Shown here piece after piece: positions 879 through 16,790 of a stretch of DNA of 64,000 nt (position 1 is its first letter; every line of letters starts with the position of its first letter). The notes beneath the pieces were generated by a model. The model saw only the letters and a program-made list of their open reading frames with translations, was not told the DNA's origin and did not search any database. The position numbers and the translations under genes were made by a program. The stretch is from Sulfuriflexus mobilis (GTDB taxonomy: Bacteria; Pseudomonadota; Gammaproteobacteria; AKS1): positions 2,356,001 to 2,420,000 of the forward strand of contig NZ_AP018725.1 of assembly GCF_003967195.1 (NCBI RefSeq), written 5' to 3'.

Positions 879-1502
879 TTATTGATAGAGGGCACTGGCC
901 AAGGCCTCGAATTCATCGGCGCCCTTACTGCCACGCCATAATTCAAACACTGCCATGCCTTCACTCATGGAACGACGATACAACGTCCGCTGGTACAATC
1001 GCAGTGGTAACACTGTTATCCCCGGCAATTGCTGCAGTGCCGCCTCGGTATCATCAGACTCACGTACGGCATGGTGCGTATCGGCACGATTCACAAACGC
1101 AATAATCTCCAGTGTCTTTTCCGTGCCATTACGCGCATCGGCAACGATCTTCAAAAAACGTTGCGTTGCCCAAACATCCGGTTGACTCGGTGGCACCGGC
1201 ACGATCACGCGGTCGGCATGGCGGATGGCCTCGCGCATGCCTTCCAGATTTGCCGCGCCGACATCGATAATCACCTCTACCTGCGCTGCGTGATCGAAAC
1301 TTGGCCTGTCTACAGCGGCTACCTGCAAGGCGGGGACAATTCCATCTTCCTTGCGCACCTGTGCCACATCCGACAAGGTTCGCTGCGGGTCAAGGTCAAA
1401 GGCCTTCACTTCTCGTCCCTGCCCAACCAACCAGGCCAGCAGATTGAAGCTCACCGTACTCTTGCCCGAACCACCCTTCAGGTTTGCCACCACTGTAATC
1501 AT
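879..1502 (-). CDS. Orphan ParA/MinD-type ATPase
   Basis: A 207-residue protein with a deviant Walker A motif KGGSGKST at residues 9-16, including the signature lysine of ParA/MinD ATPases. FDLDPQ follows at about 35-40 and a Walker B-like VIIDVGAANLEG in the middle. Families with this fold (ParA, MipZ, McdA) position cargo such as plasmids, chemoreceptor arrays or carboxysomes. No ParB or centromere-like gene is adjacent, so the cargo is not plasmid DNA by context. It lies between a small secreted Gly/Tyr/Trp-rich protein gene (3-nt gap) and the membrane TPR gene (18-nt gap), which suggests one transcript. The family call is firm; the cargo is unknown. Confidence 0.85.
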   Translation of the reverse strand: MITVVANLKGGSGKSTVSFNLLAWLVGQGREVKAFDLDPQRTLSDVAQVRKEDGIVPALQVAAVDRPSFDHAAQVEVIIDVGAANLEGMREAIRHADRVIVPVPPSQPDVWATQRFLKIVADARNGTEKTLEIIAFVNRADTHHAVRESDDTEAALQQLPGITVLPLRLYQRTLYRRSMSEGMAVFELWRGSKGADEFEALASALYQ

Positions 1503-1505
1503 ATC

Positions 1506-1844
1506 TTATCGCCAACCATAACCATAAAAAGCGGGAGGTGGCCGCCGGTAAGCATTGTAGCCAGGATGCCAGTCATTCCCACCCAAAAAATTGTTATTTA
1601 TGTTGCCGTGATACTCGATCACGACATGCATATCACCCCATTCCGTCATGTAACCACGCATGTTCCAGTCGGGGCCACCATAACCCCAGCGGTGAACGCC
1701 ATTGCGGTAACCACCCGGCTGCGAGTACTGCCCCGGCCAGGCATTTGGCCAGTACCCGCCATAGGGCATCCCCCCCCATGCCTGTGCATGGCCGGCCACC
1801 GTCAGCAACAAAAGCGCCAGACTGGTTGATAAAACTCGTATCAA
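1506..1844 (-). CDS. Small secreted Gly/Tyr/Trp-rich protein, possible sulfur-globule-associated
   Basis: A 112-residue protein starting at TTG (1842-1844). A strong GGGAGGG ribosome site sits about 5 nt upstream, and the start overlaps the TGA stop of the preceding gene, so translation is probably coupled. A clear signal peptide ends in HAQA at about residue 22. The mature chain starts WGGMPYGGYW and is rich in Gly, Tyr, Trp, Pro and Asn throughout. The AQA-W cleavage site and composition resemble the sulfur-globule-like protein encoded 0.9 kb upstream. I recognise no domain. A structural role in or on periplasmic sulfur globules is an inference from composition and neighbours. Confidence 0.7.
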   Translation of the reverse strand: MIRVLSTSLALLLLTVAGHAQAWGGMPYGGYWPNAWPGQYSQPGGYRNGVHRWGYGGPDWNMRGYMTEWGDMHVVIEYHGNINNNFLGGNDWHPGYNAYRRPPPAFYGYGWR

Positions 1845-2626
1845 GGTTTCCCTCCCTCTACTGGCGCCGGCGGCCCGGGTGGTGGCAGTTGTGGCGGTTG
1901 TGCACGGCGCACATAGCCCTTCGGTACACTGAACAGGCCCTTGCCTTGTTTACCCACCTTGATGTCACGCAATTCGCGGACATAACCATCATTGTGCTCT
2001 TCACGTACGACAATCTTTATCTCCGGGTCATACCACTGTAAAAATTGTTCACGCTGGCCACTCGCGGCCATGATCTGCATGCGCCACTTCTCTGTCTTGC
2101 GCCCATTCAGGGTTTCATCCTCAAGCAGGGTCATCTCGATGGCCGTGCCATCGGCGAAAAACTCGCGCACCGGCAGGCGGCGCTGGCTGTCTATCCAGTG
2201 CAGGCTATGCACAGGGCGACCCTTTTCAACACGACTGAATTCCCACTTCTCGGTTTCCAGCCCATTTATCTGCTCCTTGCCCAGCATCCGGCACAAGGTA
2301 CCGGGGAATTTTGCGCAAGGCGTATCATTATTCGTTACACGCCGATCCGGAAAGGCCGGTGCATGTTGTTCCACAAAGACCTTCTCTGCCGGAAATAACA
2401 AGGTACGCTTGTTTGTCTCCGCGTCGATGATCTCGATCATCTTGTGACCGTTTTGCTCGTACTCGTTACGAATAGCCTTATCACTGATATACACACGTGT
2501 CTGGATCGCGCCCTGCGGGGTCAGTTGCACGGCCGTCGCGGAAAAAGGCTCAGCCTTTTCCCCTGCAGAGACAGGCATTGTCACCATCATCAACGATGCC
2601 AGTATAAATGGTGCGTAACGGGCCAT
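1841..2626 (-). CDS. Periplasmic protein with proline-rich C-terminus, DUF4412/LolA-like
   Basis: A 261-residue protein with signal peptide MARYAPFILASLMMVTMPVSAG and a good AAGGAGA ribosome site. The body reads as alternating beta strands (for example TRVYISDKAIRNEY, TEKWEF, KTEKWRMQIMA, PVREFFADGTAIEMTL). This recalls the curved-sheet lipid-binding folds of LolA/LolB and DUF4412 proteins, which often carry similar phrases about a residue change upon metal or lipid binding. Two Cys flank a short loop (CAKFPGTLC). The last 25 residues are Pro-rich (QPPQLPPPGPPAPV). No lipobox was seen, so it is probably soluble periplasmic. It lies 69 nt downstream of the sulfur-globule-like gene. The exact role is unknown. 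Confidence 0.7.
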   Translation of the reverse strand: MARYAPFILASLMMVTMPVSAGEKAEPFSATAVQLTPQGAIQTRVYISDKAIRNEYEQNGHKMIEIIDAETNKRTLLFPAEKVFVEQHAPAFPDRRVTNNDTPCAKFPGTLCRMLGKEQINGLETEKWEFSRVEKGRPVHSLHWIDSQRRLPVREFFADGTAIEMTLLEDETLNGRKTEKWRMQIMAASGQREQFLQWYDPEIKIVVREEHNDGYVRELRDIKVGKQGKGLFSVPKGYVRRAQPPQLPPPGPPAPVEGGKP

Positions 2627-2695: not shown

Positions 2696-3178
2696 TTACT
2701 TGGCCGGTGCCGCCGGTGCCGCCGGCGCAGCTTGTGGCGCATAGCCATATGGGGCATAGCCATATGGGGCTGGTGCAGGAGGTGGTGCATAACCACCGCC
2801 ATATGGGGCACCATAACCTGGGCCATAACCACCGCCATACGGGGCACCATAACCTGGGCCATAGCCGCCATAACCTGGGCCATAACCACCGTAGTACGGA
2901 TTGTTATAACCATAACCACGACCGTAGCCGCTACCATAACCGTCACCACGACCATAGACATTACTGCTACCACGGCCACCCATGTTGAAGGACATGTTAC
3001 CGTCACCCCAGCCACTGCCATCACCCCAGCCGCTACCTCTGTTGTTGTTGCCCCAACCGCTGTTGTTGCCCCAACCATCGTTATTCCAAGGTCCCCACCA
3101 TGCCTGCGCAGTAGAGAAAGGTACGGCAGCGGCACCAACAATAATGGCAGCAGCCAACATCTTGCTTACTTTCTTCAT
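2696..3178 (-). CDS. Sulfur-globule envelope-like protein
   Basis: A 160-residue protein with a textbook signal peptide (MKKVSKMLAAAIIVGAAAVPFSTAQA) and a mature chain starting WWGPWNNDGWG. After cleavage it is low-complexity: first Trp/Asn/Gly-rich, then repeated YGPGYG and APYGGGYG units, ending in Pro/Ala. Proteins of this composition (SgpA/B/C of Allochromatium-type purple sulfur bacteria) coat periplasmic sulfur globules made during sulfide or thiosulfate oxidation. The ribosome site AGGAGAG is strong, as fits an abundant structural protein. A 120-nt spacer separates it from the next gene upstream and a strong hairpin follows it. The assignment rests on composition and secretion, not on a conserved catalytic motif. 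Confidence 0.78.
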   Translation of the reverse strand: MKKVSKMLAAAIIVGAAAVPFSTAQAWWGPWNNDGWGNNSGWGNNNRGSGWGDGSGWGDGNMSFNMGGRGSSNVYGRGDGYGSGYGRGYGYNNPYYGGYGPGYGGYGPGYGAPYGGGYGPGYGAPYGGGYAPPPAPAPYGYAPYGYAPQAAPAAPAAPAK

Positions 3179-3299: not shown

Positions 3300-3692
3300 T
3301 TACCAAAGACCATTTGACCCACCGTTGTCTATTGCCCAGGGCCCGTAGGGCACGGCGACCGGGTCGGCCCACCAGGGGATCCCGCCATTACCGTAATAGG
3401 GGTTCACCTGTTGTATATAGTTTCGATACTCATATTGCCGCGCATGAATCGGATGTAACGGCACCGCATAAGCCGGTGTATAACCCTGCTGCTGTACCGC
3501 AGCAGTCCGTTGCTTGTACCGACCTCCCCACTGCCGGGGTACCGGACGCCACGGGTTGTACTGCCGGTGTTGCGACGCGCCCATGGATGCCATCGCCGTT
3601 GCCCCATAACCGTCATGCGCCCGGGCAGGCAGGCTGACACCTGACAGGCCGGCCAGAAGCAGAACCGGCAAGGCCCTGCACAGGACTCTCAT
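3300..3692 (-). CDS. Small secreted aromatic/Gly-rich protein
   Basis: The start is set at 3692 because it gives a clean signal peptide (MRVLCRALPVLLLAGLSGVSLPARA) and an ATGA overlap with the stop of the upstream repeat protein. A longer upstream opening to 3845 is only a shadow of that gene. The mature part is about 105 residues, rich in Tyr, Trp, Gly, Pro and Gln (NPYYGNGGIPWWADPVAVPYG, ending NGGSNGLW). No known domain was recognised. Its overlap with the repeat protein and its position before the sulfur-globule-like gene suggest a shared extracytoplasmic structural role. Confidence 0.65.
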   Translation of the reverse strand: MRVLCRALPVLLLAGLSGVSLPARAHDGYGATAMASMGASQHRQYNPWRPVPRQWGGRYKQRTAAVQQQGYTPAYAVPLHPIHARQYEYRNYIQQVNPYYGNGGIPWWADPVAVPYGPWAIDNGGSNGLW

Positions 3693-4441
3693 CGAGGCCA
3701 CCCATAGGGACCTGGTCCATAAGGGCCCGGGCCATAAGGACCGTATGCCGGTGGCATCGGCGGATAGGGTTGCGCCCAGGCCGGTTGCTGCGGGGCCTGT
3801 TGCACCCAGGCCGGGGGCTGCGGGCGTTCCGGTTGTTGAGCCCATTCCGGGCGTGCCGGCGGCTGCGACATAGCCTCACGTTGTTGCTGCACCCACTCTG
3901 GCGGCTGCGGACGCTCCGGGTGCTGTTGCGGCTGGGCCCAGTCCGGACGTGCCGGCGGCTGCGACATAGCCTCACGTTGTTGTTGCACCCACTCTGGTGG
4001 CTGCGGACGTTCCGGGCGCTGTTGCGGCTGGGCCCAGTCCGGGCGTGCCGGCGGCTGCGACATAGCCTCACGTTGTTGTTGCACCCACTCTGGTGGCTGC
4101 GGACGTTCCGGGCGCTGTTGCGGCTGGGCCCATTCCGGGCGTGCCGGCGGCTGTGACATGTTCTCACGTTGTTGCTGCACCCACTCTGGCGGCTGCGGAC
4201 GTTCCGGGCGCTGTTGCGGCTGGACCCAGTCCGGGCGTGCCGGTGGCTGTGACATAGCCTCACGTTGTTGCTGCACCCACGCCGGTGGCCGCGGACGCTC
4301 CGGCATCTGTGAACGGTAAGGTCCCGGCGGTGGCGGTACAAAGGCCTGCGCGTTTTGTTCCGTCTCGGCCATTGCCGGTGCTACCGACATCAGGCTGGCG
4401 AACACCGCGGATGCTATCAGAGTAAATGTCTTGGTCTTCAT
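3689..4441 (-). CDS. Secreted protein built of 32-residue Pro/Gln/Trp repeats
   Basis: A 250-residue protein with signal peptide MKTKTFTLIASAVFASLMSVAPAMA. Residues about 46-202 are five tandem copies of a 32-residue unit, core WVQQQREAMSQPPARPDW followed by AQPQQ and RPERPQPPE. A degenerate sixth unit follows, then a YGPGPYGPGPYGWPR tail like the sulfur-globule-type tails nearby. The start at 4441 has a GGGGA ribosome site. An alternative ATG at 4471 overlaps the pump gene's TGA and would add 10 residues before the signal peptide; it has no ribosome site. I know no family with this repeat. An extended, polyproline-rich periplasmic or surface structure is likely. Confidence 0.75.
   Translation of the reverse strand: MKTKTFTLIASAVFASLMSVAPAMAETEQNAQAFVPPPPGPYRSQMPERPRPPAWVQQQREAMSQPPARPDWVQPQQRPERPQPPEWVQQQRENMSQPPARPEWAQPQQRPERPQPPEWVQQQREAMSQPPARPDWAQPQQRPERPQPPEWVQQQREAMSQPPARPDWAQPQQHPERPQPPEWVQQQREAMSQPPARPEWAQQPERPQPPAWVQQAPQQPAWAQPYPPMPPAYGPYGPGPYGPGPYGWPR
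3836..4306 (-). repeat. Tandem 96-bp coding repeat, five units
   Basis: Five direct repeats of 96 bp (the last shortened to 29 codons) inside the secreted repeat protein. Each encodes the 32-residue WVQQQRE...PPARP(D/E)W unit. Adjacent copies are nearly identical at DNA level, with changes mostly in third positions or at Asp/Glu and Ala/Asn sites, so copy number could vary by slippage or recombination. Confidence 0.85.
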
Positions 4442-4467
4442 AGTTCGTCCCCGTTTCAGTAATACAT

Positions 4468-7400
4468 TCATTCGTCAAAATTCTGTTTTAAGCGAATACC
4501 ACGCCGTTCTGTCTTGGCCCTGGCCTTTTTCCTCACGGCAGCCTTTTTCTTAACAACAGCCTTCTTCGTTATCGCCTTTTTCGGCGCAACTTTTTTCCTG
4601 GCCGCCTTTTTCGTAATGACTTTCTTCGCCGCCGTTTTAGCGACCGGCACCGATGTCTCTTTAAGCTGCCCGCCCTTGGCCGTTACCGTTTCCGGTGATG
4701 GGGATGTCGGCGGGCTACCTGCAGGTGGCACACCACCCCCCTCATTCCCTGCCGAACCGCCGGGGCCACCACTTGATGGCGGGCTACCGCCACCATCGCC
4801 GCCCTTATTACCAAAGCGCGCCATCAGTGCCAGGAACAGCTTGTTCAGCCAGCGGACAAAGTTCTCGATCGCGATCGAACCCCGCAATAACAGGTTGCCG
4901 ATCCGCATCTCGCGTTCAAGACGTCGTGTATGACGGTCCTTGACTACCGGTTCGTTCAGTTCGCAGTTCGCATCCCCTTCTTCCGGGTTCACACCCGCCA
5001 TGCGATAAAACTGCCGTTGTGCACTGATACACCCCATGGGTATTACCACCAGGGTCAGCACCGTGGCCACACCGGTACCAAACAACAGGGCCGCTGCCAT
5101 GCCCTGGAAGATCGGGTCGGTGACAATTGCCCCGGCGCCCGCCATCAGGGTCAGTGCAGTAATAAAGATCGGCCGCATACGTGTCTGCCCGGCCGAAATC
5201 ACCGCCTCGCGGATCGGTGTACCGCGTTCCACCTCGTTATTGACAAACTCCACCAGCAGGATCGAGTTACGAACGATGATCCCGGCCAGGGCAATAAAGC
5301 CAATCATCGAGGTTGCAGTAAATTCTGCACCCAAAATCCAGTGCCCGGGTATGATCCCGATCAAGGTTAGGGGAATTGGGGCCATAATCAGGCCACCGAT
5401 GATGAAATTTCGAAACTCCCAGACGATCAGGCCGTAAATCAGCACCAGTGCGGCCATAAAGGCCAGCCCCATGTCACGGAAGGTCTCGTAGGTCACCGTC
5501 CATTCGCCGGTCCATTCGAAACCGGAGACATCATCACTGGCCGGTGGACCGAGCAGGCCGCCCGGCATGCCGCTGATCTTCACGCCATCCGGGGTCGTGT
5601 AGTTTTCCAGCAGGTCTTCGACACCGAACATACCGTAGATCGGCGCGCCGAGACGGCCTTCCATCTCGCCGGTGACATATTCCATTGCCCGCAGGTCTTT
5701 GTGGTAGATAATCCGTTCTTCGAGGTGACGCACAAAGCGACCCAGTTCAGCCAGCGGCACCGGCGTGCCATCACGGGCACGTACCGGCAGGTTACCCAAA
5801 CGTTGCAATTGCGCGCGCACGGCCAGCGGCACCTGCATGATGATCCAGGTCGGCTCGAGCACCGCGGCACGCTTCACGTCGCCCAGGCGGAAGTCACCCA
5901 TGGCCATGTCGAGGTTGCGGTTGATGTCGTCGACACTGATGCCGTGGCGGACGGCCTTTTCAACATCGACCTCGAAACGCCAGAACTCATAGTCACCGGT
6001 GACATAGTTATCGACATCAACGATGTTCTCGACCTGTTCGAACATGCGTGTCATATCACGTGCTACCTGGCGACGTGTCTCGGCATCCGGTCCATAGACC
6101 TCGGCGACCACAGTCTGCAACACGGGCGGACCCGGCGGCATCTCGACGACCTGGATTCTGACATCGAGATTATTTGCCTTGATGAAATCCCACAGGAGCT
6201 TACGAGCATCGACTGCGATCTTATGACTGCCATGTTCACGCTCTTCCTTGTCCAGCAGCATGACCTGGATATCGGCATGCCAGGGCTCCTTGCGCAGGAA
6301 GTAGTGACGGACCATGCCGTTAAAATTAAACGGTGACGAGGTCCCGGAATAAGTTTGCAGGGCGGTGACTTCCGGGATCTTGCGCAGTTCTTCGGCCAGT
6401 TGCGCGGTGACATTGGCCGTAACGGGCAGGGCCGTGCCCTCCGGCATGTTGATCACGACGTTGAATTCCGGCTTGTTATCAAACGGCAACATCTTCACCG
6501 TGGCCGCATTGGTATAAAACATCGAACAGGCCAGCAGGGTCAGCACAACCAAACCAATGAGGAAACCAATACTCAGGGGCCGGCTTGTGCACAGGCGCTG
6601 CATGAACGGCTGGTAGTAGCGGCCGATCCGTTCACGTGAACGGGCCTCACGTTTCTCCGCCGCCTCCAGGGCATGCAATTTCGGTCGCACGCGCATGGCC
6701 AGCCAGGGCGCAAAGACAAAGGCCGCGATCAACGAGAAGACCATGGCCGCGGCACCGAGCACCGGGATCGGCCGCATGTACGGCCCCATCAGGCCACTGA
6801 CAAAACCCATCGGCAGCATCGCAGAGACAATGGTCAGCGTGGCGAGGATAGTCGGGTTACCGACCTCACGCACGGCATCAATGGCGATCTCCACGGTTGT
6901 CTTGCCCGCCTCCAGCCAGCGCCGGAAGATGTTTTCCACCACCACGGTGGCATCATCGACGAGGATGCCGATCGAGAACACCAGTGCGAACAGGCTGACG
7001 CGGTCAATCGTGTAATCGAGGACCCAGGCCGCCCAGACGGTGACAAGGATGACGATCGGGATCACGGTGATCACGACCGAGGCGGCGCGAACACCGAGAC
7101 CAATCAGGCACAATACACTGACCGCGATCGCAGCCTCGAACAGGGCCAGGAGTAATTCATTAACCTTGTCGTCGGCGGTCTTGCCGTAATTACGGGTGAT
7201 GGTGACATTGACATTATTTGGGATCAGCGCGCCCTTCAGGGATTCCAGCTTATCGAGGATCGCCTCGGCAACCGTCACGCCGTTGGTGCCAACCTTTTTT
7301 GCCACGGCGATGGTCACGGCCGGGGCGCCGCTGACCACTGTGCCTTCGTGCGCGGCACCGGTGTAAAAGGTCACCAGTTGTGAGGAGTCGGCCGGGACCT

Positions 7401-8238
7401 GCTCCACCGAAGCGACATCGCGCACATACACCGGCGCATCGTCACGAATGCCGATCACCAGGTTGGCAACATCCCGGGCCGTGTTCAGAAACGCACCACT
7501 ATAAACGGTAAAAGAAAGACCGCGGGTCTCAATGCCACCGGCATCGAGTTCGGTGTTGGCGGTACGAATGGTTTGTGCCAGTTCATCGAGGGTAATGTCA
7601 TGACCACTCAGACGCTCCGGCGAGACCTCGATACGGATCTGTTCACGACGCCCACCGGTGACAAAACCGTTACCGGTGTTGGGCACCTGACTGAGTCGTT
7701 GCAGGACATCGAGACCGAGGGCACGCATACTGGCATCATCGACCTCTTCCGACCACAGGGTGGCGGTGACAATCGGTACATCATCAATGCCCACCGGCTT
7801 CACCAGCGGCATGGCCACGCCCGGCGGGATGCGATCGAGGTTCGACTGCACCTTGTCGTGGACCTTGACGATGGAGGCACCGAGTTCCTCACCGACCTTG
7901 AAGCGCACAGTGACGATCGCGGCACCGCGCATAGTCGCCGAGTAGACGTGTCGCACACCCGGGATCTCATCCATGATGCGTTCCAGCGGCTCGGTCACCA
8001 GCCGGCTGACCTGTTGCGCCGAGGCGCCCGGGTACTGCACGTAGATGTCGACCATGGGCACCGATATCTTCGGGTCTTCCTGGCGAGGGGTAAACATCAG
8101 CCCCAGCAGGCCAATGGCGAGGAAGGCGAACATCAACAGGGGGGTGACCGGCGAGTCAATAAACTGCGCGGCAATCCGCCCGGCCATGCCTGGGTCATTG
8201 GCCACAATCGTATCGGTAGAAGAGGGCTTATCTGTCAT
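4468..8238 (-). CDS. RND efflux pump, inner-membrane subunit, with Lys/Ala-rich C-terminal tail
   Basis: A 1256-residue protein of the AcrB/MdtB/CzcA superfamily, which uses the proton gradient to export substrates from the periplasm or inner membrane. The usual layout is seen: TM1, a periplasmic porter loop, TM2-7, a second loop, then TM8-12. The fourth-helix region holds the proton-relay signature GILVDDATVVVENIFRRW with the paired Asp. The second half has the conserved phrase GIIVRNSILLVEF. The core ends near residue 1140. About 115 further residues follow: a Gly/Pro/Ser linker, then a (A/K)KK-rich stretch like a histone H1 tail, which should be cytoplasmic. The adaptor gene is 39 nt upstream. 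Substrate unknown; no TolC-like gene is in view. Confidence 0.92.
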   Translation of the reverse strand: MTDKPSSTDTIVANDPGMAGRIAAQFIDSPVTPLLMFAFLAIGLLGLMFTPRQEDPKISVPMVDIYVQYPGASAQQVSRLVTEPLERIMDEIPGVRHVYSATMRGAAIVTVRFKVGEELGASIVKVHDKVQSNLDRIPPGVAMPLVKPVGIDDVPIVTATLWSEEVDDASMRALGLDVLQRLSQVPNTGNGFVTGGRREQIRIEVSPERLSGHDITLDELAQTIRTANTELDAGGIETRGLSFTVYSGAFLNTARDVANLVIGIRDDAPVYVRDVASVEQVPADSSQLVTFYTGAAHEGTVVSGAPAVTIAVAKKVGTNGVTVAEAILDKLESLKGALIPNNVNVTITRNYGKTADDKVNELLLALFEAAIAVSVLCLIGLGVRAASVVITVIPIVILVTVWAAWVLDYTIDRVSLFALVFSIGILVDDATVVVENIFRRWLEAGKTTVEIAIDAVREVGNPTILATLTIVSAMLPMGFVSGLMGPYMRPIPVLGAAAMVFSLIAAFVFAPWLAMRVRPKLHALEAAEKREARSRERIGRYYQPFMQRLCTSRPLSIGFLIGLVVLTLLACSMFYTNAATVKMLPFDNKPEFNVVINMPEGTALPVTANVTAQLAEELRKIPEVTALQTYSGTSSPFNFNGMVRHYFLRKEPWHADIQVMLLDKEEREHGSHKIAVDARKLLWDFIKANNLDVRIQVVEMPPGPPVLQTVVAEVYGPDAETRRQVARDMTRMFEQVENIVDVDNYVTGDYEFWRFEVDVEKAVRHGISVDDINRNLDMAMGDFRLGDVKRAAVLEPTWIIMQVPLAVRAQLQRLGNLPVRARDGTPVPLAELGRFVRHLEERIIYHKDLRAMEYVTGEMEGRLGAPIYGMFGVEDLLENYTTPDGVKISGMPGGLLGPPASDDVSGFEWTGEWTVTYETFRDMGLAFMAALVLIYGLIVWEFRNFIIGGLIMAPIPLTLIGIIPGHWILGAEFTATSMIGFIALAGIIVRNSILLVEFVNNEVERGTPIREAVISAGQTRMRPIFITALTLMAGAGAIVTDPIFQGMAAALLFGTGVATVLTLVVIPMGCISAQRQFYRMAGVNPEEGDANCELNEPVVKDRHTRRLEREMRIGNLLLRGSIAIENFVRWLNKLFLALMARFGNKGGDGGGSPPSSGGPGGSAGNEGGGVPPAGSPPTSPSPETVTAKGGQLKETSVPVAKTAAKKVITKKAARKKVAPKKAITKKAVVKKKAAVRKKARAKTERRGIRLKQNFDE

Positions 8239-8277: not shown

Positions 8278-9489
8278 TTAACGCGGCAGGCCACCGTTAC
8301 TGAAGGCATCCTGGCCGGCGCGGTGTCCCGGTCGCGGTGCGGCAAGGATATGTTCCCCGGGCTGCAGTCCCGAGAGCACCGGCACAAAACCGTTACCCAT
8401 TGGTTCACCCAGGCGCACCAGGCGTAACTGGGTCTTGCGATCCTGACCTATCACAAATACCGCCGGCAGGCTGCCGCGGCGTACCGCCGAGTATTCCGGG
8501 ATCACCGGCATCAGTTGCCCGCGCGAATCACCATCCGGCAACATCACCTCGGCATACAGACCCGGTCCGGCCGGGGTGCCCTCCGGCAGGTCAAGTTTCA
8601 CACTCACGGTATGGCGATTGGCATGCGCGGCCGGGTAGATCTGCGCCACCTGCACCTCGACCGGGCCGCCAACATCAAGACGCGCCGGCACAGACATACC
8701 GATTTGCAGGGCGCCGACGATACGCACCGGGACCTCAATCTGGATTTGCAAGCGACTGACGTCGGCAAAACTGATCAACGGCTCACCCGGCTGCACCGTG
8801 TCACCGACCTCGACAAACTTCTCTGTGATCACCCCGGCAAACGGCGCCACCGTGCGGGCATCGCGCAGTTTTGCCTCAACGGCATCGATACCGGAGTGGG
8901 CCTGTAACATCTGCGACTGGGCCTCGTGGATCCGACTGCCCTCGCCATACAGGTCGGCCTGCCGCTCCAGCCACGGGTTGCCCATACCAAAATTGCTACC
9001 CATGCCGCGGGTAAAAAACTGGTCAAACATTGATGGCAGGCCCATGCCGGGCGTACGCCCGATATCGCGGGAACGCGGCGCCCACAGCTCACGCGAATAT
9101 TGCACGCGGCTGTTACGTAACATGCTTTCCGCCGAGCCTAACTGGGCCAGGGCACGGCGACGCTCGGCCGCGAGGCCGTCGTCACTCAGGCCGATAATCA
9201 GTTGTTTGTCATCAAACCAGTCGCCCTCACGCCCGCCAAGAAACTCGACGCGACCCGGCAGTTGTGCGGTCAGGGTGACTTCACGGGTGGCGACGACACT
9301 GCCGCCCAGGATCATGTTGCTGCCCTGGGGCGCGGCCATGACCACATACACGCCATTGGCAGCATAACCCGTGGTCATGCCCGGGTAAGCGGGCTGGCCC
9401 GACATTGGCGGCATGGCCTGCAGCGCGGGCAGGGTCACGAGACAGGCCGCAGCGACCAGTATTTTGATTGATTTTTGCTTGATTTTCAT
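8278..9489 (-). CDS. RND periplasmic adaptor (membrane fusion protein)
   Basis: The start at 9489 gives a 403-residue protein with signal peptide MKIKQKSIKILVAAACLVTLPALQA; a longer frame to 9549 adds a non-signal-like leader. HlyD/AcrA-type order is seen: a first barrel-sandwich half (VVATREVTLTAQLPGRVEFLGG), a helical hairpin with an unusual Met/Gly/Phe-rich insert (TRGMGSNFGMGNPW), the second half (TVAPFAGVITEKFVEVGDTVQPGEPL), then beta-barrel and membrane-proximal parts. It would link the downstream RND pump to an outer-membrane channel. It is the first gene after the sigma-54 promoter at 9574-9589. Confidence 0.9.
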   Translation of the reverse strand: MKIKQKSIKILVAAACLVTLPALQAMPPMSGQPAYPGMTTGYAANGVYVVMAAPQGSNMILGGSVVATREVTLTAQLPGRVEFLGGREGDWFDDKQLIIGLSDDGLAAERRRALAQLGSAESMLRNSRVQYSRELWAPRSRDIGRTPGMGLPSMFDQFFTRGMGSNFGMGNPWLERQADLYGEGSRIHEAQSQMLQAHSGIDAVEAKLRDARTVAPFAGVITEKFVEVGDTVQPGEPLISFADVSRLQIQIEVPVRIVGALQIGMSVPARLDVGGPVEVQVAQIYPAAHANRHTVSVKLDLPEGTPAGPGLYAEVMLPDGDSRGQLMPVIPEYSAVRRGSLPAVFVIGQDRKTQLRLVRLGEPMGNGFVPVLSGLQPGEHILAAPRPGHRAGQDAFSNGGLPR

Positions 9490-9573
9490 TGTCTTACCCG
9501 AGTGATCCCTGTGTTTGTGACCGACTGGGCACCCCGCCCATTGAGCCACGTATTAACACTTATATAAATACAG

Positions 9574-9589
9574 TGCAGACATTGTGCCA
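9574..9589 (-). promoter_or_regulatory. Sigma-54 (-24/-12) promoter of the RND operon
   Basis: On the minus strand the bases read TGGCACAATGTCTGCA. This gives a perfect -24 TGGCAC, then the -12 CTGCA (consensus TTGCW), with exactly 10 bases between the invariant GG and GC. Transcription would start near 9563, about 75 nt before the adaptor start codon. The divergently encoded sigma-54 activator and the palindromes at 9630-9741 support it. Confidence 0.8.
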
Positions 9590-9629
9590 ATTAGTATCTT
9601 ATTGTTTTCAGAGGTTTTATTTTCATGAC

Positions 9630-9648
9630 GTTGCAGGTGGTCTGCAAC
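9630..9648. promoter_or_regulatory. Palindromic activator-site candidate 1
   Basis: GTTGCA, 7 bases, TGCAAC. The centre lies about 76 bp upstream of the predicted sigma-54 start, a usual distance for an enhancer site. The same arms and spacing recur at 9723-9741, 93 bp away, close to nine helical turns. Confidence 0.6.
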
Positions 9649-9713
9649 ACCGGTAAACCCCACTGGCACAGATAATGGCTAGTATCTCAGTCTATTAGCG
9701 AATACTTATTGTT

Positions 9714-9730
9714 GTTGCACCCGTTGCAAC
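9714..9730. promoter_or_regulatory. Palindromic activator-site candidate 2 (short spacer)
   Basis: GTTGCA, 5 bases, TGCAAC. It shares its right arm with site 3, so it may be a half-site cluster and not an independent operator. Confidence 0.4.
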
Positions 9731-9741
9731 GTCAGTGCAAC
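9723..9741. promoter_or_regulatory. Palindromic activator-site candidate 3
   Basis: GTTGCA, 7 bases, TGCAAC, identical in arms and spacing to site 1. It ends 39 bp before the activator's start codon, so it could also serve autoregulation of that gene. Confidence 0.6.
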
Positions 9742-9780: not shown

Positions 9781-11154
9781 ATGTCACAGCTGGATCAATT
9801 CGTCGCCGCCCTGGAATCCATTTTGCATCACGTCGAGGACGGGATCCTCATCGCCGATAACGAGCAGACCCTGCTCTATCACAACCAGCTGTTCCGCGAC
9901 CTGCTCGCGATCCCAGAGGACAAATCGCTGCTGCATATGCGCGACCTCGAGGGGTTAAACCTGAAAAAGGAATTACTGCGCGCGGCCATCGAGGCCGGGC
10001 AAACCGATGCCGCCAGCCGCCCCATCGACAGTTTTGTCGAGTTTGAGCATGTTCACGTAGCCGGGGAGTCGGCCCGCCACCTGCGCATTCGCAGTGGTGT
10101 GGTGCGTTCCCCCTGCACCACGGCACCGCTACGCCTACTCATCGTCCGTGACTACACCGAACAGCAGCAGCTGCGCGCCGTGCTCTCGCACGCCGATGAA
10201 AGCGGCATGGTCACCCATGACCCGCAAATGCTCGAGATCATCGCCCGCCTCGAGCAAATCGCCCCCAGCCCGGCCTTTGTCCTGCTGCAGGGCGAATCCG
10301 GCACCGGCAAGACCCAGCTGGCCCGCTATCTGCACAACAAGAGCGCCCGCCGTGATGGCCCCTACGTGGAGGTCAACTGCGCTGCCATCCCGCACAGCCT
10401 GATCGAGTCGGAGTTATTCGGTCATGTAAAAGGCGCCTATACCGGTGCCCATCAGCAACGCGCCGGACGCTTCCAGGCCGCCCATGGCGGCACCCTGTTT
10501 CTCGATGAGATCAGCGAGGTGCCCATCGAACTGCAGGCCAAGCTGTTACGCGCCGTGCAGGATCAGAAGTTTGAGATGGTCGGTTCGGATAAAACCATTA
10601 GTGTCGATGTCCGCGTGATCACGGCGAGCAACCGTAACCTGCGCGAGGCCGTTGATGATGGCAGCTTCCGCGCAGACCTTTACTATCGCCTCGCCGTGAT
10701 CCCCATCCACATCCCCGCCCTGCGCGAGCGCCCCGGCGATATCCCGACGCTGATCCAGCACTTCACGCAGCAACTCGCCGCGCGCGGCTACCCGAGCAAC
10801 ACCGAGTGGGACCAGGAGGCCATAAACCTGATGATGAATTACCCCTGGCCCGGCAACGTGCGTGAACTCTGCAATGCCGTCGAACACGGCATCATCTGTG
10901 CCGAGGCCGGGCGGGTCACCGCACACAGCCTGCCGCAAGACCTGCTCCACTACACCGGGCGAGGCATGGCAGCAAATAGCCACTACCTACAAGCCGAGCA
11001 AAATGAACTGCAACGCGAAGCGATCATGACGGCCCTTCGTGAGGCCAACGGCAACCGCGCCGAGGCCGCCGACAAACTCGGCATCAACCGCACCACCCTG
11101 TGGCGACGCATGCAAAAACTCGGCATCGATGAAGCCGCGGTGATGTCGCATTGA
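9781..11154 (+). CDS. Sigma-54-dependent activator (PAS-like sensor, AAA+, Fis-type HTH)
   Basis: A 457-residue bacterial enhancer-binding protein from the ATG at 9781. A further in-frame ATG at 9742 is possible; neither has a clear ribosome site, and earlier starts would overlap the palindromes. Residues about 10-130 look like a PAS sensor (EDGILIADNEQTLLYHNQLF). The AAA+ domain has Walker A GESGTGKT at 171-178, the sigma-54 contact loop as GAYTGA at 218-223 (a Phe to Tyr variant of GAFTGA), Walker B TLFLDE at 238-243 and an arginine-finger region FRADLYYRL. The C-terminus has a Fis-type helix-turn-helix (AADKLGINRTTLWRRM). It is divergent from the RND operon, whose sigma-54 promoter it probably activates. 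The signal is unknown. Confidence 0.92.
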   Translation: MSQLDQFVAALESILHHVEDGILIADNEQTLLYHNQLFRDLLAIPEDKSLLHMRDLEGLNLKKELLRAAIEAGQTDAASRPIDSFVEFEHVHVAGESARHLRIRSGVVRSPCTTAPLRLLIVRDYTEQQQLRAVLSHADESGMVTHDPQMLEIIARLEQIAPSPAFVLLQGESGTGKTQLARYLHNKSARRDGPYVEVNCAAIPHSLIESELFGHVKGAYTGAHQQRAGRFQAAHGGTLFLDEISEVPIELQAKLLRAVQDQKFEMVGSDKTISVDVRVITASNRNLREAVDDGSFRADLYYRLAVIPIHIPALRERPGDIPTLIQHFTQQLAARGYPSNTEWDQEAINLMMNYPWPGNVRELCNAVEHGIICAEAGRVTAHSLPQDLLHYTGRGMAANSHYLQAEQNELQREAIMTALREANGNRAEAADKLGINRTTLWRRMQKLGIDEAAVMSH

Positions 11155-11703: not shown

Positions 11704-12042
11704 ATGAAATTAAGCTTGAAATATTTTGCATGCCTTAGCATGCTTCTATTCACGCCAGTTACTACATTTGCTAACTCAGGGTGGACAAATCACGTCCAAG
11801 TAACAGAGCTTACGCCAACTACCCATGAACGCTTCCTTGTTACATTAAATGTAACTAAAAACCCTAGTGGTTGTAAAAATAAGGAAATATTTTATCAAGA
11901 CTATAGCTCTTCTGGTTCTGAAAAAATGTTCCACACACTTTTGGAAGCAGTTGTTTCAGGTAAAAAAGTCCGTGTTTTTGTAACAGGTAAATGTGAACTT
12001 AATGGATACTCAGAGATATCGTCGGTTGGTATAACACTATAA
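11704..12042 (+). CDS. Small secreted cassette-type protein, unknown function
   Basis: A 112-residue protein with signal peptide MKLSLKYFACLSMLLFTPVTTFA and a perfect AAGGAG ribosome site 7 nt before the ATG. It begins 23 nt after the attC core, the usual place for a gene in an integron cassette. The mature part has two Cys that could form a disulfide (SGCKNKEIF and GKCELNGYSEI). The pattern is one of a small beta-rich periplasmic or exported protein. It is lower in GC than the flanking operons. I recognise the general style of small secreted cassette proteins but no named family. Confidence 0.75.
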   Translation: MKLSLKYFACLSMLLFTPVTTFANSGWTNHVQVTELTPTTHERFLVTLNVTKNPSGCKNKEIFYQDYSSSGSEKMFHTLLEAVVSGKKVRVFVTGKCELNGYSEISSVGITL

Positions 12043-12469
12043 AGCTGTTGTGTATACCGCCTAATAAGCGCATCAAGTTCGTTCCTGTGTGAGTAGCTGG
12101 GTGCGAAAAAAATCACGCGCCACTTATGTAAACGTTGAACTCACAATACTGTGTGGTCATTCGGTAAATTCGATTAATTGTGATTCAGGAGTTTCCGGCT
12201 GACATTACTATTTTATGTGAACGGATTGTTTTAATTGTGGCTTCTGAAAGCAGACGTTTTTAAGGAAACTCTCTACCACGGATCTGAGTCGCATAAACAA
12301 TATTAAGTATCTTATATGTTGCGCCATAGAATGAGTATAAGAGATGAAATAACCACTCAATAAAGTTACTGTGATAAAAAGCATTGACCTTTCTTTCCAC
12401 CGTGCAACATAAGTAAAAGCGAGTACGACGTATTGCTATATTGTTCCCAGGTGGTAATGGAGTAACCGC
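12043..12469. other. Intergenic region with possible degraded attC
   Basis: At 12059-12140 there is GCCTAAT, a short G/C-containing fold, then GTTGAAC, which fits the R' pattern GTTRRRY. The arms pair poorly, so this is at most a decayed attC closing the second cassette. The rest of the stretch holds no gene I can support. A possible promoter for the ABC operon lies at 12384-12413. Confidence 0.35.
12384..12413 (+). promoter_or_regulatory. Candidate sigma-70 promoter of the ABC exporter operon
   Basis: TTGACC, 18 bases, CATAAG, ending 56 nt before the first gene of the operon. The -35 is good (5/6). The -10 matches 4/6. Confidence 0.4.
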
Positions 12470-13213
12470 ATGCCCCAAGACAAGCTAACCAACCATGAGC
12501 CACTGAATGAGGGCGTGGTGTTTCATGTTCATGGTGTTACCAAGGCGTACCAGATGGGCGAGGTACAGGTGCATGCCCTGCGCGGAGTGGATTTGGACCT
12601 ATATAGTGGTGAATTTACGGTACTGTTGGGGGCCTCGGGTAGCGGCAAATCCACTCTATTGAATATCCTTGGCGGACTGGATACCCCAACTGAAGGGCAT
12701 GTGTTTTATGGCGAGCGCGATTTGACCCGTGCTACCGAGACTATGCTGACCGAATACCGTCGTTACCATGTCGGTTTTGTCTTCCAGTTTTACAATCTGA
12801 TCCCAAGTCTCACCGCGCGAGAAAATGTCTCGGTTGTTACCGAGATTGCACAGACTCCCATGCAGCCGGAAGAGGCCTTGCGACTGGTTAACCTAAGTGA
12901 TCGCATGGATCATTTTCCGGCACAGCTTTCCGGTGGCGAACAACAGCGGGTCGCCATTGCCCGCGCGATTGCGAAACAACCGGATGTATTGTTATGCGAT
13001 GAACCAACTGGTGCACTCGATTCCAAAACAGGCATCGTGGTACTGGAAGCCCTGCAACGGGTCAACCAGGAACTGGGCACCACCACGGCGGTGATTACTC
13101 ATAATGCGGGTATTGCCCAAATGGCGGATCGGGTAATTCATCTGGCCGACGGCCGTATTAGCCAGGTGTATGCCAATGAAACCAAACTCGCTCCCAGTGA
13201 ACTGAGTTGGTGA
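12470..13213 (+). CDS. ABC exporter ATP-binding subunit (LolD/MacB-like)
   Basis: A 247-residue ABC ATPase. Walker A is GASGSGKST at 54-62, the Q-loop Gln is at 106 (FVFQFYNL), the signature LSGGEQQR is at 153-160, Walker B is VLLCDEP at 173-179, and the switch His is in VITHNAG. The phrase [15 protein letters not shown] is typical of the MacB/LolD/DevA branch that works with FtsX-type permeases. Ribosome site GGAG is 7 nt before the ATG. The permease gene starts 4 nt after its stop, and a HlyD-like adaptor follows. It would power export or extraction of a lipid, peptide or small molecule; the substrate cannot be told. Confidence 0.93.
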
Positions 13214-13217
13214 AACG

Positions 13218-15581
13218 ATGAAGGCCATCGACAAAAAACTCTGGCGTGACCTTTGGCAATTGCGTGGTCAGGCCTTCGCCATCACGCTGGTGCTTGCCTG
13301 TGGTGTAGCGACATATGTTATGTTTTTAAGCACACTGGATTCGTTGAACCAGACAAGGTCAACGTTTTATCGTGACTACCGTTTTGCCGATGTGTTTGTC
13401 TCACTGGTACGGGCGCCGGAGTCAGTGCGGCAGAGAATCACCGAAATACCAGGTGTTGCTGATGTGGTTACCCGGGTTGGGGGAAGCGTTACGGTCGATC
13501 TTCCCGATTTCCCCGAACCTGTATCCGGATTTATCATTTCGGTACCGGATCAGGGGGAAATACATCTAAATGATATGTATCTACGTGAAGGTCGTAAAAT
13601 AGATAGTGGCAATAATGATGAAATTGTCATTAGTGAAGGATTTGCAAAAGCACACGGTCTTCATCCTGGTGATCGGCTCAGTGTTATTATTAAAGGGATT
13701 CGCAAAGAACTTCGCATTGTCGGCACCGGCATGTCACCGGAGTACCTTTCTTTGGTACCGCCAGGCAGCTTCTTCCCTGATCCGAAACGACAGATTTTTA
13801 TTTGGATGGCCCGTACGCCGCTTGGCCATGCCTTTGACATGCATGGCGCATTCAACAGTGTCGCGCTGCGGCTCGATGCCGGGGTGAAGGTGCAGGATGT
13901 GATCACGCATCTCGATGATCTACTGAAACCTTACGGGGGAGGGGGTGCGATATCCCGTGAAGATCAACCGTCGTACAAGTATCTATCACATGAAATCGAT
14001 CAATTTGACAACCTGTCTAATGTCTTTCCCGGAATTTTCCTGGGCGTCGCCGCATTTTTATTAAATGTGGTAATAACCCGTCTTGTAGCAACGCAGAGAG
14101 AACAGATCGCTGTCCTGAAAGCCTTTGGTTACAGCAATACCGACGTGACCCTGCATTATATACAGTTGGTATTGGTAATCGTAACCATTGGTACGGGCTT
14201 GGGAATAGTGCTTGGCTTATGGTTGGGGAACATGCTGGCGGAAATATACGTTGCATATTTTCGCTTGCCTTATCTGCAATTTGTCTTACAACCTGTGGTC
14301 ATCATCAAGGCGGTATTTGTAAGTATTGCTGCTGCAATGATTGGTGCCATATTTGCTGTGCATAGAGCAGCGCAGTTACGTCCGGCCGAGGCGATGCGCC
14401 CTGAAGCACCTGCAGTGTATCGGCAAAGTATATTGGAGTATACCTGGCTGAAGTCCAGGTTCTCCTCTCCGACCCGTATGATCCTCCGCCATATGGAACG
14501 ACACCTGATTAAATCGGCACTGTCAATTATCGGGATAGCCCTGGCATGTGGTGTTGTGATGTCAGGGCGTTTTACAGAAGATAGCGTGAGCTACATCATG
14601 GATGTGCAATTCAAATTTTCCCAACGCCAGGATTTGTTACTTTCCTTTATTGAGCCGACAGAATACCGGTCTTTATATGATTTATTAAATATGCCCGGCG
14701 TCGAGCATGGTGAGGTATTTCGTAGTGTACCGGTAAGGTTGCATCATGGACATCTCAATTTTCGAACAGCAATTACAGGACTGGAGCCGGGGGGGCATAT
14801 TATCCAATTCCTGAATGCTGATCTCAAACCCTTTCGGCTACCTGCATCGGGTATTGTCTTGTCGGATTATTTTGTGAATATCCTCGACGTAAAACCCGGC
14901 GACTGGATCACCGTTGAAATATTGGATGGCAAAGGCACCCGACGGCAAGTACAGGTTGTCGCACTCGGCAGGCAATATCTCGGCCTTACCGGCTATATGG
15001 CCATCCAATCCCTTAACCGCCTGTTACGAGAACCTCATGCAATCAATGGCGCACTACTGAGTGTTGATGAACGTGAAATGCCTGATATTTTAAAACGCCT
15101 GAAAAAAATACCACGAATAGCAGCGAGCAGCGTGCGGCAACAGGAGATTAAAAACTATCGTAAGACTATGGATCAGACCATGCTGTTTTACACGACGATA
15201 GCAAGCATTTTTGCAGTGGTGATTGCAGTGGGTATTGTTTATAACAGCGCGCGGATCATGCTCATCGAGCGTGGTCGCGAACTGGCCAGTTTGCGTGTGC
15301 TCGGACTGAAGCGCAGTGAAATTTCATATATTTTGCTGGGTGAACTAGCAATACTGACCCTGTTGGCGATTCCCTTGGGCTTTTTATTTGGTTACGGGCT
15401 TTGTGGTTACATCGCGAGCACTCTTCAGAACGAGATATTCCGTGTTCCATTGGTTCTGGAACCGGATACCTATGCTTTTGCCGCGCTGGTGGTTCTGGTT
15501 GCCGCAACGGCATCCGCTTTTATGGTACACCGTCAATTAGATAAACTGGATTTGATCGCCGTGCTGAAAACGAAGGAATAA
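13218..15581 (+). CDS. ABC exporter permease, two FtsX domains
   Basis: A 787-residue permease. It has an N-terminal membrane helix (FAITLVLACGVATYVMFL), then a large periplasmic domain, then three helices of a first FtsX domain (around residues 270-390 with ATQREQIAVLKAFGYSNTDV). A second N-terminal-type helix near 430, a second periplasmic domain and a second FtsX triplet (around 650-780 with ERGRELASLRVLGLKRSEI) follow. This duplicated layout is that of LolC/E-type or predicted antimicrobial-peptide exporters rather than single-unit MacB. It is coupled to the ATPase gene (4-nt gap) and the adaptor gene (6-nt gap). Confidence 0.9.
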   Translation: MKAIDKKLWRDLWQLRGQAFAITLVLACGVATYVMFLSTLDSLNQTRSTFYRDYRFADVFVSLVRAPESVRQRITEIPGVADVVTRVGGSVTVDLPDFPEPVSGFIISVPDQGEIHLNDMYLREGRKIDSGNNDEIVISEGFAKAHGLHPGDRLSVIIKGIRKELRIVGTGMSPEYLSLVPPGSFFPDPKRQIFIWMARTPLGHAFDMHGAFNSVALRLDAGVKVQDVITHLDDLLKPYGGGGAISREDQPSYKYLSHEIDQFDNLSNVFPGIFLGVAAFLLNVVITRLVATQREQIAVLKAFGYSNTDVTLHYIQLVLVIVTIGTGLGIVLGLWLGNMLAEIYVAYFRLPYLQFVLQPVVIIKAVFVSIAAAMIGAIFAVHRAAQLRPAEAMRPEAPAVYRQSILEYTWLKSRFSSPTRMILRHMERHLIKSALSIIGIALACGVVMSGRFTEDSVSYIMDVQFKFSQRQDLLLSFIEPTEYRSLYDLLNMPGVEHGEVFRSVPVRLHHGHLNFRTAITGLEPGGHIIQFLNADLKPFRLPASGIVLSDYFVNILDVKPGDWITVEILDGKGTRRQVQVVALGRQYLGLTGYMAIQSLNRLLREPHAINGALLSVDEREMPDILKRLKKIPRIAASSVRQQEIKNYRKTMDQTMLFYTTIASIFAVVIAVGIVYNSARIMLIERGRELASLRVLGLKRSEISYILLGELAILTLLAIPLGFLFGYGLCGYIASTLQNEIFRVPLVLEPDTYAFAALVVLVAATASAFMVHRQLDKLDLIAVLKTKE

Positions 15582-15587
15582 TCCATT

Positions 15588-16790
15588 ATGAAACTACCTC
15601 ATCACACCGGATTGATTGGGACAATCGTTGCCATCATCGTCGGTCTGGTTATTGGATTCTGGCCACAACCGAGTTGGGTGGAGGTGGCAAGGGTTTCACG
15701 CGCTCCACTGCTGGTGACGGTAGTCGAAGAGGGCAAGACCCGCGTGATCGACCGATACATAATTTCGGCACCGGTGACCGGTGTGGCCTGTCGTGTTGAC
15801 ATGAATGTTGGGGACAACGTGACGCAAGGCCAGGTATTACTGGGGCTTGACCCCATGCAATCGGAAGTGCTGGATCCACGACGTCGGGAGGAAGCAAAAG
15901 CAAGGGTGGCCGCAGCGGCTTCAGCCTTGCGCGCTGCTGAAGAAAATGCCCGCGCAGCCAAGGCAGATGCCGATTATGCCGCAACCGAGCTAACTCGAAT
16001 TAAAAAGCTGTTTGAGACAGGGCATGTTTCTCATGATGTCATGGACAAAGCGAACACAGCTGCGCACAGTACCAGTGCGGCCCAGCGTTCTACAAATTTT
16101 GCAGTGGACGTTGCCCGATATGATCTGGCGGCTGCCAAAACCGCCCTGAAATATTCAGCGGCACAGGAAATCGATGCTGCCGAAAAAGTCCCGATTCGAG
16201 CACCGGTTACCGGACAGATTTTGAAGATCCACCATGAATGCAAGGGTGTGGTGACGGCTGGTCAGCCGATCCTTGAGGTGGGTGATACAAGTCAACTGGA
16301 GGTGGAAATCGAGGTTTTATCTGAGGATGCAGTCAGTATTATACCCGGCATGCGCGTGTTGTTTCACCGATGGGGAAAAAACCAACAGCCACTAGAAGGC
16401 CGTGTCCGCACGATTGAGCCGGTCGGTTTCACCAAAGTATCGGCACTGGGTGTTGAAGAGCAGCGTGTGTTAATCATTGCCGATATTACTTCACCATATG
16501 AACAATGGTCACGGTTAGGAGATGGCTATCGCGTCGAGGCACAGTTCATTCTCTGGGAAGAAAAAAATGTCTTGCAGATCCCTGCCAGTGCACTGTTTCA
16601 TTATCAGGATGCCTGGGCCGTATTTGTACTGGAAAATGGCCGTGCCTACCGACGGGTAATTAAAATTGGCCAGCGTAACGGGCTGGTGGCCCAGGTGTTC
16701 GACGGATTGACCATGGAAGAAAAAGTTATTTTGTATCCCGATGATACGATCAGTAACGGTAAGCGAGTGAAGGTGCGTACGTATAACTAA
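15588..16790 (+). CDS. HlyD/MacA-like periplasmic adaptor of the ABC exporter
   Basis: A 400-residue membrane fusion protein with an N-terminal membrane anchor (TGLIGTIVAIIVGLVIGFW). The first barrel-sandwich half is SAPVTGVACRVDMNVGDNVTQGQVLLGLD and a long Ala-rich coiled-coil hairpin covers about residues 90-200. The second half (VPIRAPVTGQILKIHHE) and beta-barrel parts follow. The absence of a cleavable signal matches adaptors anchored in the inner membrane. It would join the ABC permease to an outer-membrane channel encoded elsewhere. Confidence 0.9.
   Translation: MKLPHHTGLIGTIVAIIVGLVIGFWPQPSWVEVARVSRAPLLVTVVEEGKTRVIDRYIISAPVTGVACRVDMNVGDNVTQGQVLLGLDPMQSEVLDPRRREEAKARVAAAASALRAAEENARAAKADADYAATELTRIKKLFETGHVSHDVMDKANTAAHSTSAAQRSTNFAVDVARYDLAAAKTALKYSAAQEIDAAEKVPIRAPVTGQILKIHHECKGVVTAGQPILEVGDTSQLEVEIEVLSEDAVSIIPGMRVLFHRWGKNQQPLEGRVRTIEPVGFTKVSALGVEEQRVLIIADITSPYEQWSRLGDGYRVEAQFILWEEKNVLQIPASALFHYQDAWAVFVLENGRAYRRVIKIGQRNGLVAQVFDGLTMEEKVILYPDDTISNGKRVKVRTYN

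Follow-up and report, generated by a model that had tools for sequence, protein, structure and literature searches.

The intergenic region between an RND operon and a divergent regulatory gene of Sulfuriflexus mobilis very probably contains a dedicated sigma-54 switch with a single target, in which the divergently encoded activator would work through a bipartite enhancer on an RND operon linked to sulfur oxidation. S. mobilis aks1 is a sulfur oxidiser with a genome of 3,111,340 bp (AP018725; PMC6397845). The window analysed here is a stretch of 64,000 nucleotides of this genome, and coordinates refer to it unless another locus is named.

The intergenic region and its flanking genes

The switch and the genes on both sides of it comprise the following features:

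879–1502, minus strand: orphan ATPase of the ParA/McdA type, last gene of the operon (PF01656; NF041546 below cut-off)
1506–1844, minus strand: small exported protein; 4-bp overlap with the DUF4412-like gene
1841–2626, minus strand: exported DUF4412-like protein (PF14371, 21.5 bits, just under the cut-off)
2696–3178, minus strand: Gly-rich protein resembling sulfur globule proteins (PF17228, E = 6e-4, 21 bits against a cut-off of 26.7)
3300–3665, minus strand: small exported protein, start approximate
3689–4471, minus strand: exported Pro/Gln-rich protein with a PPPGPY motif
4468–8238, minus strand: RND permease, HAE1-like (PF00873, E = 1.7e-138; closest solved chain 6vej, E = 4e-62)
8278–9489, minus strand: RND periplasmic adaptor (MFP), operon gene 1 (PF16576/PF13437; TIGR01730 above cut-off)
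9574–9589, minus strand: predicted sigma-54 (-24/-12) promoter TGGCACAATGTCTGCA, facing the adaptor gene
9630–9648: predicted proximal enhancer site, GTTGCA-N7-TGCAAC GTTGCAGGTGGTCTGCAAC, with half-sites at about -70 and -80
9714–9741: predicted distal enhancer cluster of overlapping N5 and N7 palindromes, with half-sites at about -154, -162 and -174
9781–11154, plus strand: one-component sigma-54 activator with a PAS-like N-terminal domain, AAA+ domain and Fis-type HTH; start codon set by the orthologs

The original prediction placed a -24/-12 element, TGGCAC-N5-CTGCA with exact GG-N10-GC spacing, in front of the RND adaptor gene, and the minus-strand sequence 9589–9574 indeed reads TGGCAC-AATGT-CTGCA. 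Its score is reached by 0.5% of dinucleotide shuffles of the region, and rpoN is present in the genome. From the position of this element, transcription is predicted to start at about 9563–9564; the predicted adaptor ATG, which is the likely start, lies at 9489. A second sigma-54 promoter directed toward the activator (TGGCACAGATAATGGC, 9664) was rejected because its -12 GC is absent, and no consensus sigma-70 promoter was found upstream of the activator gene. Genome G018 does have a good -24/-12 element directed at the activator, TGGCGCGGCTATTGCA (L035:11618, plus strand), which suggests sigma-54 autoactivation of the activator in that genome.

Two copies of GTTGCA-N7-TGCAAC lie 93 bp apart between the promoter and the activator gene, at 9630 and at 9723–9741 (GTTGCAACGTCAGTGCAAC), and the second is overlapped by an N5 variant at 9714–9730 (GTTGCACCCGTTGCAAC), all as originally described. 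By pattern search, GTTGCA-N5..8-TGCAAC occurs in only three places in the 3,111,340-bp genome, all inside 112 bp; by simple arithmetic, about 0.7 matches would be expected by chance in 3.1 Mb. A genome search for the N7 palindrome at other -24/-12 promoters, proposed with the original prediction, returned none besides this locus, and a wider S. mobilis regulon, sought genome-wide, yielded no further intact palindromes. N7 sites with one mismatch are found at 12 other positions, mostly inside long ORFs, and none of these is both intergenic and near a separate -24/-12 element. The region upstream of the FCSD gene of S. mobilis itself is free of clustered half-sites.

The divergent gene encodes the PAS/AAA+/Fis-HTH protein that had been anticipated. 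Its AAA+ domain (PF00158, E = 1.7e-68) carries the Walker A sequence GESGTGKT and a GAYTGA loop (GAFTGA in orthologs), its C-terminus is a Fis-type HTH (PF02954, E = 9.6e-14), and its N-terminus matches PAS_8 (PF13188) weakly; PF25601 is matched as well. The AAA+ domain with its Walker A and GAFTGA-type loop, the Fis HTH, the -24/-12 target and the presence of rpoN mark the protein as a predicted sigma-54 enhancer-binding protein. All NCBIfam activator models match it well below their cut-offs, so that it falls into no named equivalog family there. The match to the NorR equivalog (NF003451, E = 1e-99) scores 334 bits, short of the required 476, and starts after the sensor domain. The PAS domain carries a conserved stretch, DAAxxPSGxFVxF. 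AlphaFold, run on two sequences, gave a poor model (mean pLDDT 49) in which the N-terminus shows no more than a PAS-like order of strands and helices, while the HTH is predicted with higher confidence.

On the other side of the promoter, the genes from the adaptor to the ParA-type ATPase likely form a single operon, as suggested by their close same-strand spacing and by terminator-like sites that are no commoner in this stretch than in shuffles. The adaptor N-terminus is signal-peptide-like (MKIKQKSIKILVAAACLV). The permease C-terminus (window 4468–4900) is unusual, with a Gly/Pro-rich part and then a Lys/Ala-rich tail beyond the portion that aligns with drug pumps. The likeness of the 2696–3178 product to sulfur globule proteins (PF17228) is a resemblance only. 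The PPPGPY protein adjoins the RND gene in 12 tabulated loci, window included, and homologs of the DUF4412-like protein and of ParA occur in 8 and at least 7 other loci, respectively. The ParA/McdA-type ATPase closes the RND operon beside sulfur-globule-like proteins in the window and in L100, L103, L104, L106, L107, L112 and L132; this orphan ATPase might be a positioner of inclusions. Beyond the activator, consecutive genes at 12470–16790 encode an ABC ATPase, an FtsX-like permease and an HlyD-type adaptor, which make up a second export system next to the switch.

Conservation of the proposed switch and specificity of its motif

In two congeners (L033/L034; activator identity 64%), the -24/-12 element is kept in position and sequence and both palindrome positions are retained, while the intervening sequence has diverged. 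The arms of the proximal palindrome are invariant among three congeners. The distal palindrome of the congeners has an N6 spacer, with one mismatch in G003, which means that the spacer length is not fixed. The two palindromes are about 90 bp apart in the congeners, compared with 93 bp in the window.

Across 369 gammaproteobacterial genomes, a profile search set orthologs of the activator (E ≤ 5e-164) apart from its paralogs (about 1e-110); a single truncated match, in G064, fell between the two groups. The ortholog set comprises 22 full-length activators from 12 gammaproteobacterial families, one of them added from a separate search; the truncated match was rejected as an ortholog, having neither sites nor a divergent RND operon. 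In 21 of the 22 orthologous loci, the activator and the same adaptor-RND pair are encoded divergently. The exception is G136, in which flavocytochrome c sulfide dehydrogenase (FccAB) takes the divergent position and no adaptor-RND pair is found there. In the intergenic regions of 23 activator loci (G064 included), the half-sites GTTGCA/TGCAAC number 88, where dinucleotide shuffles give 8.3 (maximum 19). Palindromes, one mismatch being allowed, number 23 against 0.24 in the shuffles (maximum 3), and facing -24/-12 elements are present in 17 of the 23 regions against 1.0 (maximum 4); the carriers are related, and these figures therefore overstate independence, as does the Fisher test given below. 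With a score of at least 15 and margins of 40 bp, a facing -24/-12 element is found in 21 of the 22 orthologs.

Measured from the predicted transcription start, 23 half-sites fall at -60 to -99 and 52 at -140 to -199, with a single one at -100 to -139 and few past -200. Proximal half-sites are present in 16 of 20 loci, distal ones likewise in 16 of 20, and both in 13 of 20, so that, under the strict 6-mer, four loci are left without a proximal and four without a distal half-site. The two clusters are accordingly read here as a predicted bipartite enhancer. Adjoining half-sites are most often 9–12 bp apart. Their spacers range from N5 to N8, which is unusual for a rigid dimer site and counts against the proposed switch. 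The distance of about nine helical turns noted at the outset holds for the 93 bp of the window; cluster centres lie 75–110 bp apart across the wider family, and this relation is thus not conserved.

The distal cluster ends only 40 bp ahead of the activator ATG, and autoregulation is common among divergent regulators of the NorR type. The cluster might then be mainly an autoregulatory operator of the activator, leaving the proximal palindrome alone to serve the RND promoter. This explanation is improbable, as the distal half-sites hold their position relative to the operon start across loci, and L100, L101 and L108 have distal sites only. Because the cluster keeps its place at -140 to -199, its first reading is as the far half of the putative bipartite enhancer. 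The autoregulation that had been suggested for this downstream site is no more than a possibility, given that the cluster follows the operon start and that no sigma-70 promoter could be placed for the activator; from the distance to the activator ATG, it might take the form of autorepression.

In many families, the first operon gene, ahead of adaptor-RND, encodes a protein of about 130 aa described here as SCP2-like (L103, oriented, 11917–12312; homologs in L036, L098, L099, L101, L102, L104–L106 and L115). The name is our own description: the protein has no NCBIfam match, and the L036 homolog has no Pfam match. In the loci of G153 and G358, the SCP2-like gene is found past the activator instead, next to a sulfide-quinone reductase (SQR) gene.

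The motif is specific to this locus family, where half-sites reach a density of 13.8 per kb, compared with 0.8 per kb ahead of other sigma-54 activators (50 upstream regions). Half of these control half-sites traced to one gene in G225, whose activator scores in the paralog range. The same operon of adaptor, RND, Gly-rich and ParA genes lies beside it, together with a -24/-12 element and with half-sites near -92, -157 and -176; the half-site motif thus flagged G225 as a diverged member of the set before anything was known of the genes around it. The full-length activator matches in G223 and G337 are unrelated, with neither RND genes nor clustered sites.

NtrC enhancers are likewise inverted repeats with a TGCA core upstream of -24/-12 promoters, with the half-site TGCACC. 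Since the TGCA-containing repeats of S. mobilis look like NtrC-type sites, and the genome encodes at least eight other sigma-54 activators, the palindromes could belong to NtrC or to another activator, with the divergent gene a mere neighbour. This is very improbable. The S. mobilis half-site is GTTGCA, its spacing varies, and the palindromes occur at one locus and nowhere else in the genome, unlike the sites of a global regulator; moreover, the sites accompany this activator across 12 families, and few of them lie ahead of its paralogs. The predicted action of the divergent activator on the palindromes and on the RND/sulfur-globule-type operon is strongly supported by this conservation.

Association with sulfur oxidation

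The gene dsrA is present in 17 of 22 carrier genomes (G064 included) and in 101 of the remaining 347 (p = 9e-6 by Fisher's test, uncorrected for relatedness). Among the five carriers without dsrA, two are incomplete (72% and 80%) and G136 has FccAB at the locus. In G153, which also lacks dsrA, the gene downstream of the activator is close to a solved SQR (E = 2e-190), and a gene very similar to it occupies the same place in G358. FccAB sits before the adaptor in G018 (L035) and replaces the RND genes in G136 (L111). The dsrA association and these neighbours support a sulfur-related role.

PAS domains sense many ligands, and the switch may be correctly described while its signal is something other than sulfur, such as a metal, the redox or oxygen state, or stress to the envelope or from hydrophobic compounds, with the RND system serving general efflux. 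Among RND proteins, the permease comes nearest to those of drug efflux, and the PAS domain conserves neither a cysteine nor a histidine across the 22 orthologs, residues that might have hinted at a sulfur ligand. Such a signal is unlikely, although it deserves more weight than the other alternatives: set against it are the association with dsrA genomes, FccAB in the controlled stretch of two loci, SQR adjoining the activator in G153, and the sulfur-globule-like protein in the operon, together with the RND-SQR operon of Azospira suillum, which is upregulated during H2S oxidation, even though its deletion left the oxidation rate unchanged (PMC5358917). A signal related to sulfur or sulfide oxidation is therefore still the one proposed. 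The original idea of an internal signal, in the cytoplasm, fits the PAS domain and the absence of a receiver domain.

Relation to known switches and proposed mechanism

The norVW genes of E. coli are controlled by NorR, a one-component activator with a cytoplasmic sensor and Fis HTH, encoded divergently from its single target, with several inverted-repeat enhancer sites. The S. mobilis activator shares the divergent one-component arrangement, the several intergenic inverted repeats, the Fis HTH and the AAA+/HTH match to NF003451. It differs in having PAS instead of the NO-sensing GAF domain, a score under the NorR cut-off, the half-site GTTGCA and another operon. FisR of Cupriavidus and Acinetobacter baumannii, compared by description, is also a sigma-54 activator encoded divergently from an adjoining sulfur-related operon, for which a sigma-54 promoter is predicted (PMC7315123). 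FisR controls PDO/SQR sulfide detoxification, whereas the present operon is of an RND/sulfur-globule-like type found mostly in dsr-type sulfur oxidisers; the genes divergent from the activator are adaptor-RND in 21 of the 22 loci and FccAB in one, and in none a PDO/SQR operon. No cysteine of the sensor domain is conserved across the 22 orthologs, and the sensor cysteines of Cupriavidus FisR are also absent from A. baumannii FisR (PMC7315123). The nearest likeness of the operon, again by description, is A. suillum Dsui_3440-3443, where an RND adaptor and permease share an operon with a sulfur-oxidation gene and are upregulated during sulfide oxidation (PMC5358917). There, SQR lies inside the operon, unlike at the S. 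mobilis locus, and genes for sulfur-globule-like proteins or ParA are not reported. The literature searched contained no account of the activator/RND-operon switch. The type of switch is known, the regulator family is uncharacterised and the operon unstudied.

For enhancer-binding proteins, signal-driven assembly into hexamers and remodelling of the sigma-54 polymerase by the AAA+ domain are established. In the mechanism proposed here, the activator would sit on, or be recruited to, GTTGCA/TGCAAC half-sites about one helical turn apart in a proximal (about -70 to -90) and a distal (about -150 to -190) cluster. A cytoplasmic signal, most likely tied to sulfide or sulfur oxidation, would reach the PAS domain and lead to hexamer assembly, after which the GAYTGA loop would remodel the sigma-54 polymerase waiting at the -24/-12 promoter. 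Transcription would then begin near 9563 and run through the operon for the adaptor, RND permease, exported protein, sulfur-globule-like, DUF4412-like and ParA products.

A further step would see in these activators a new sulfur-responsive family, spread over at least 12 gammaproteobacterial families, that drives sulfur storage, with the RND system pumping sulfur or polysulfide-related material, exported globule-coat-like proteins, and a ParA-type ATPase spacing the inclusions. This picture is speculative and rather doubtful as a whole.

What makes the locus interesting is the operon, widely conserved among sulfur oxidisers, and not the type of switch. An orphan RND pump, sulfur-globule-like proteins and a ParA ATPase are tied into one putatively regulated unit, and the GTTGCA motif finds the RND operon in other genomes. 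How sulfur genes are switched in dsr-type oxidisers is poorly known, and a candidate regulator, operator, promoter and operon can now be tested together in a cultured strain.
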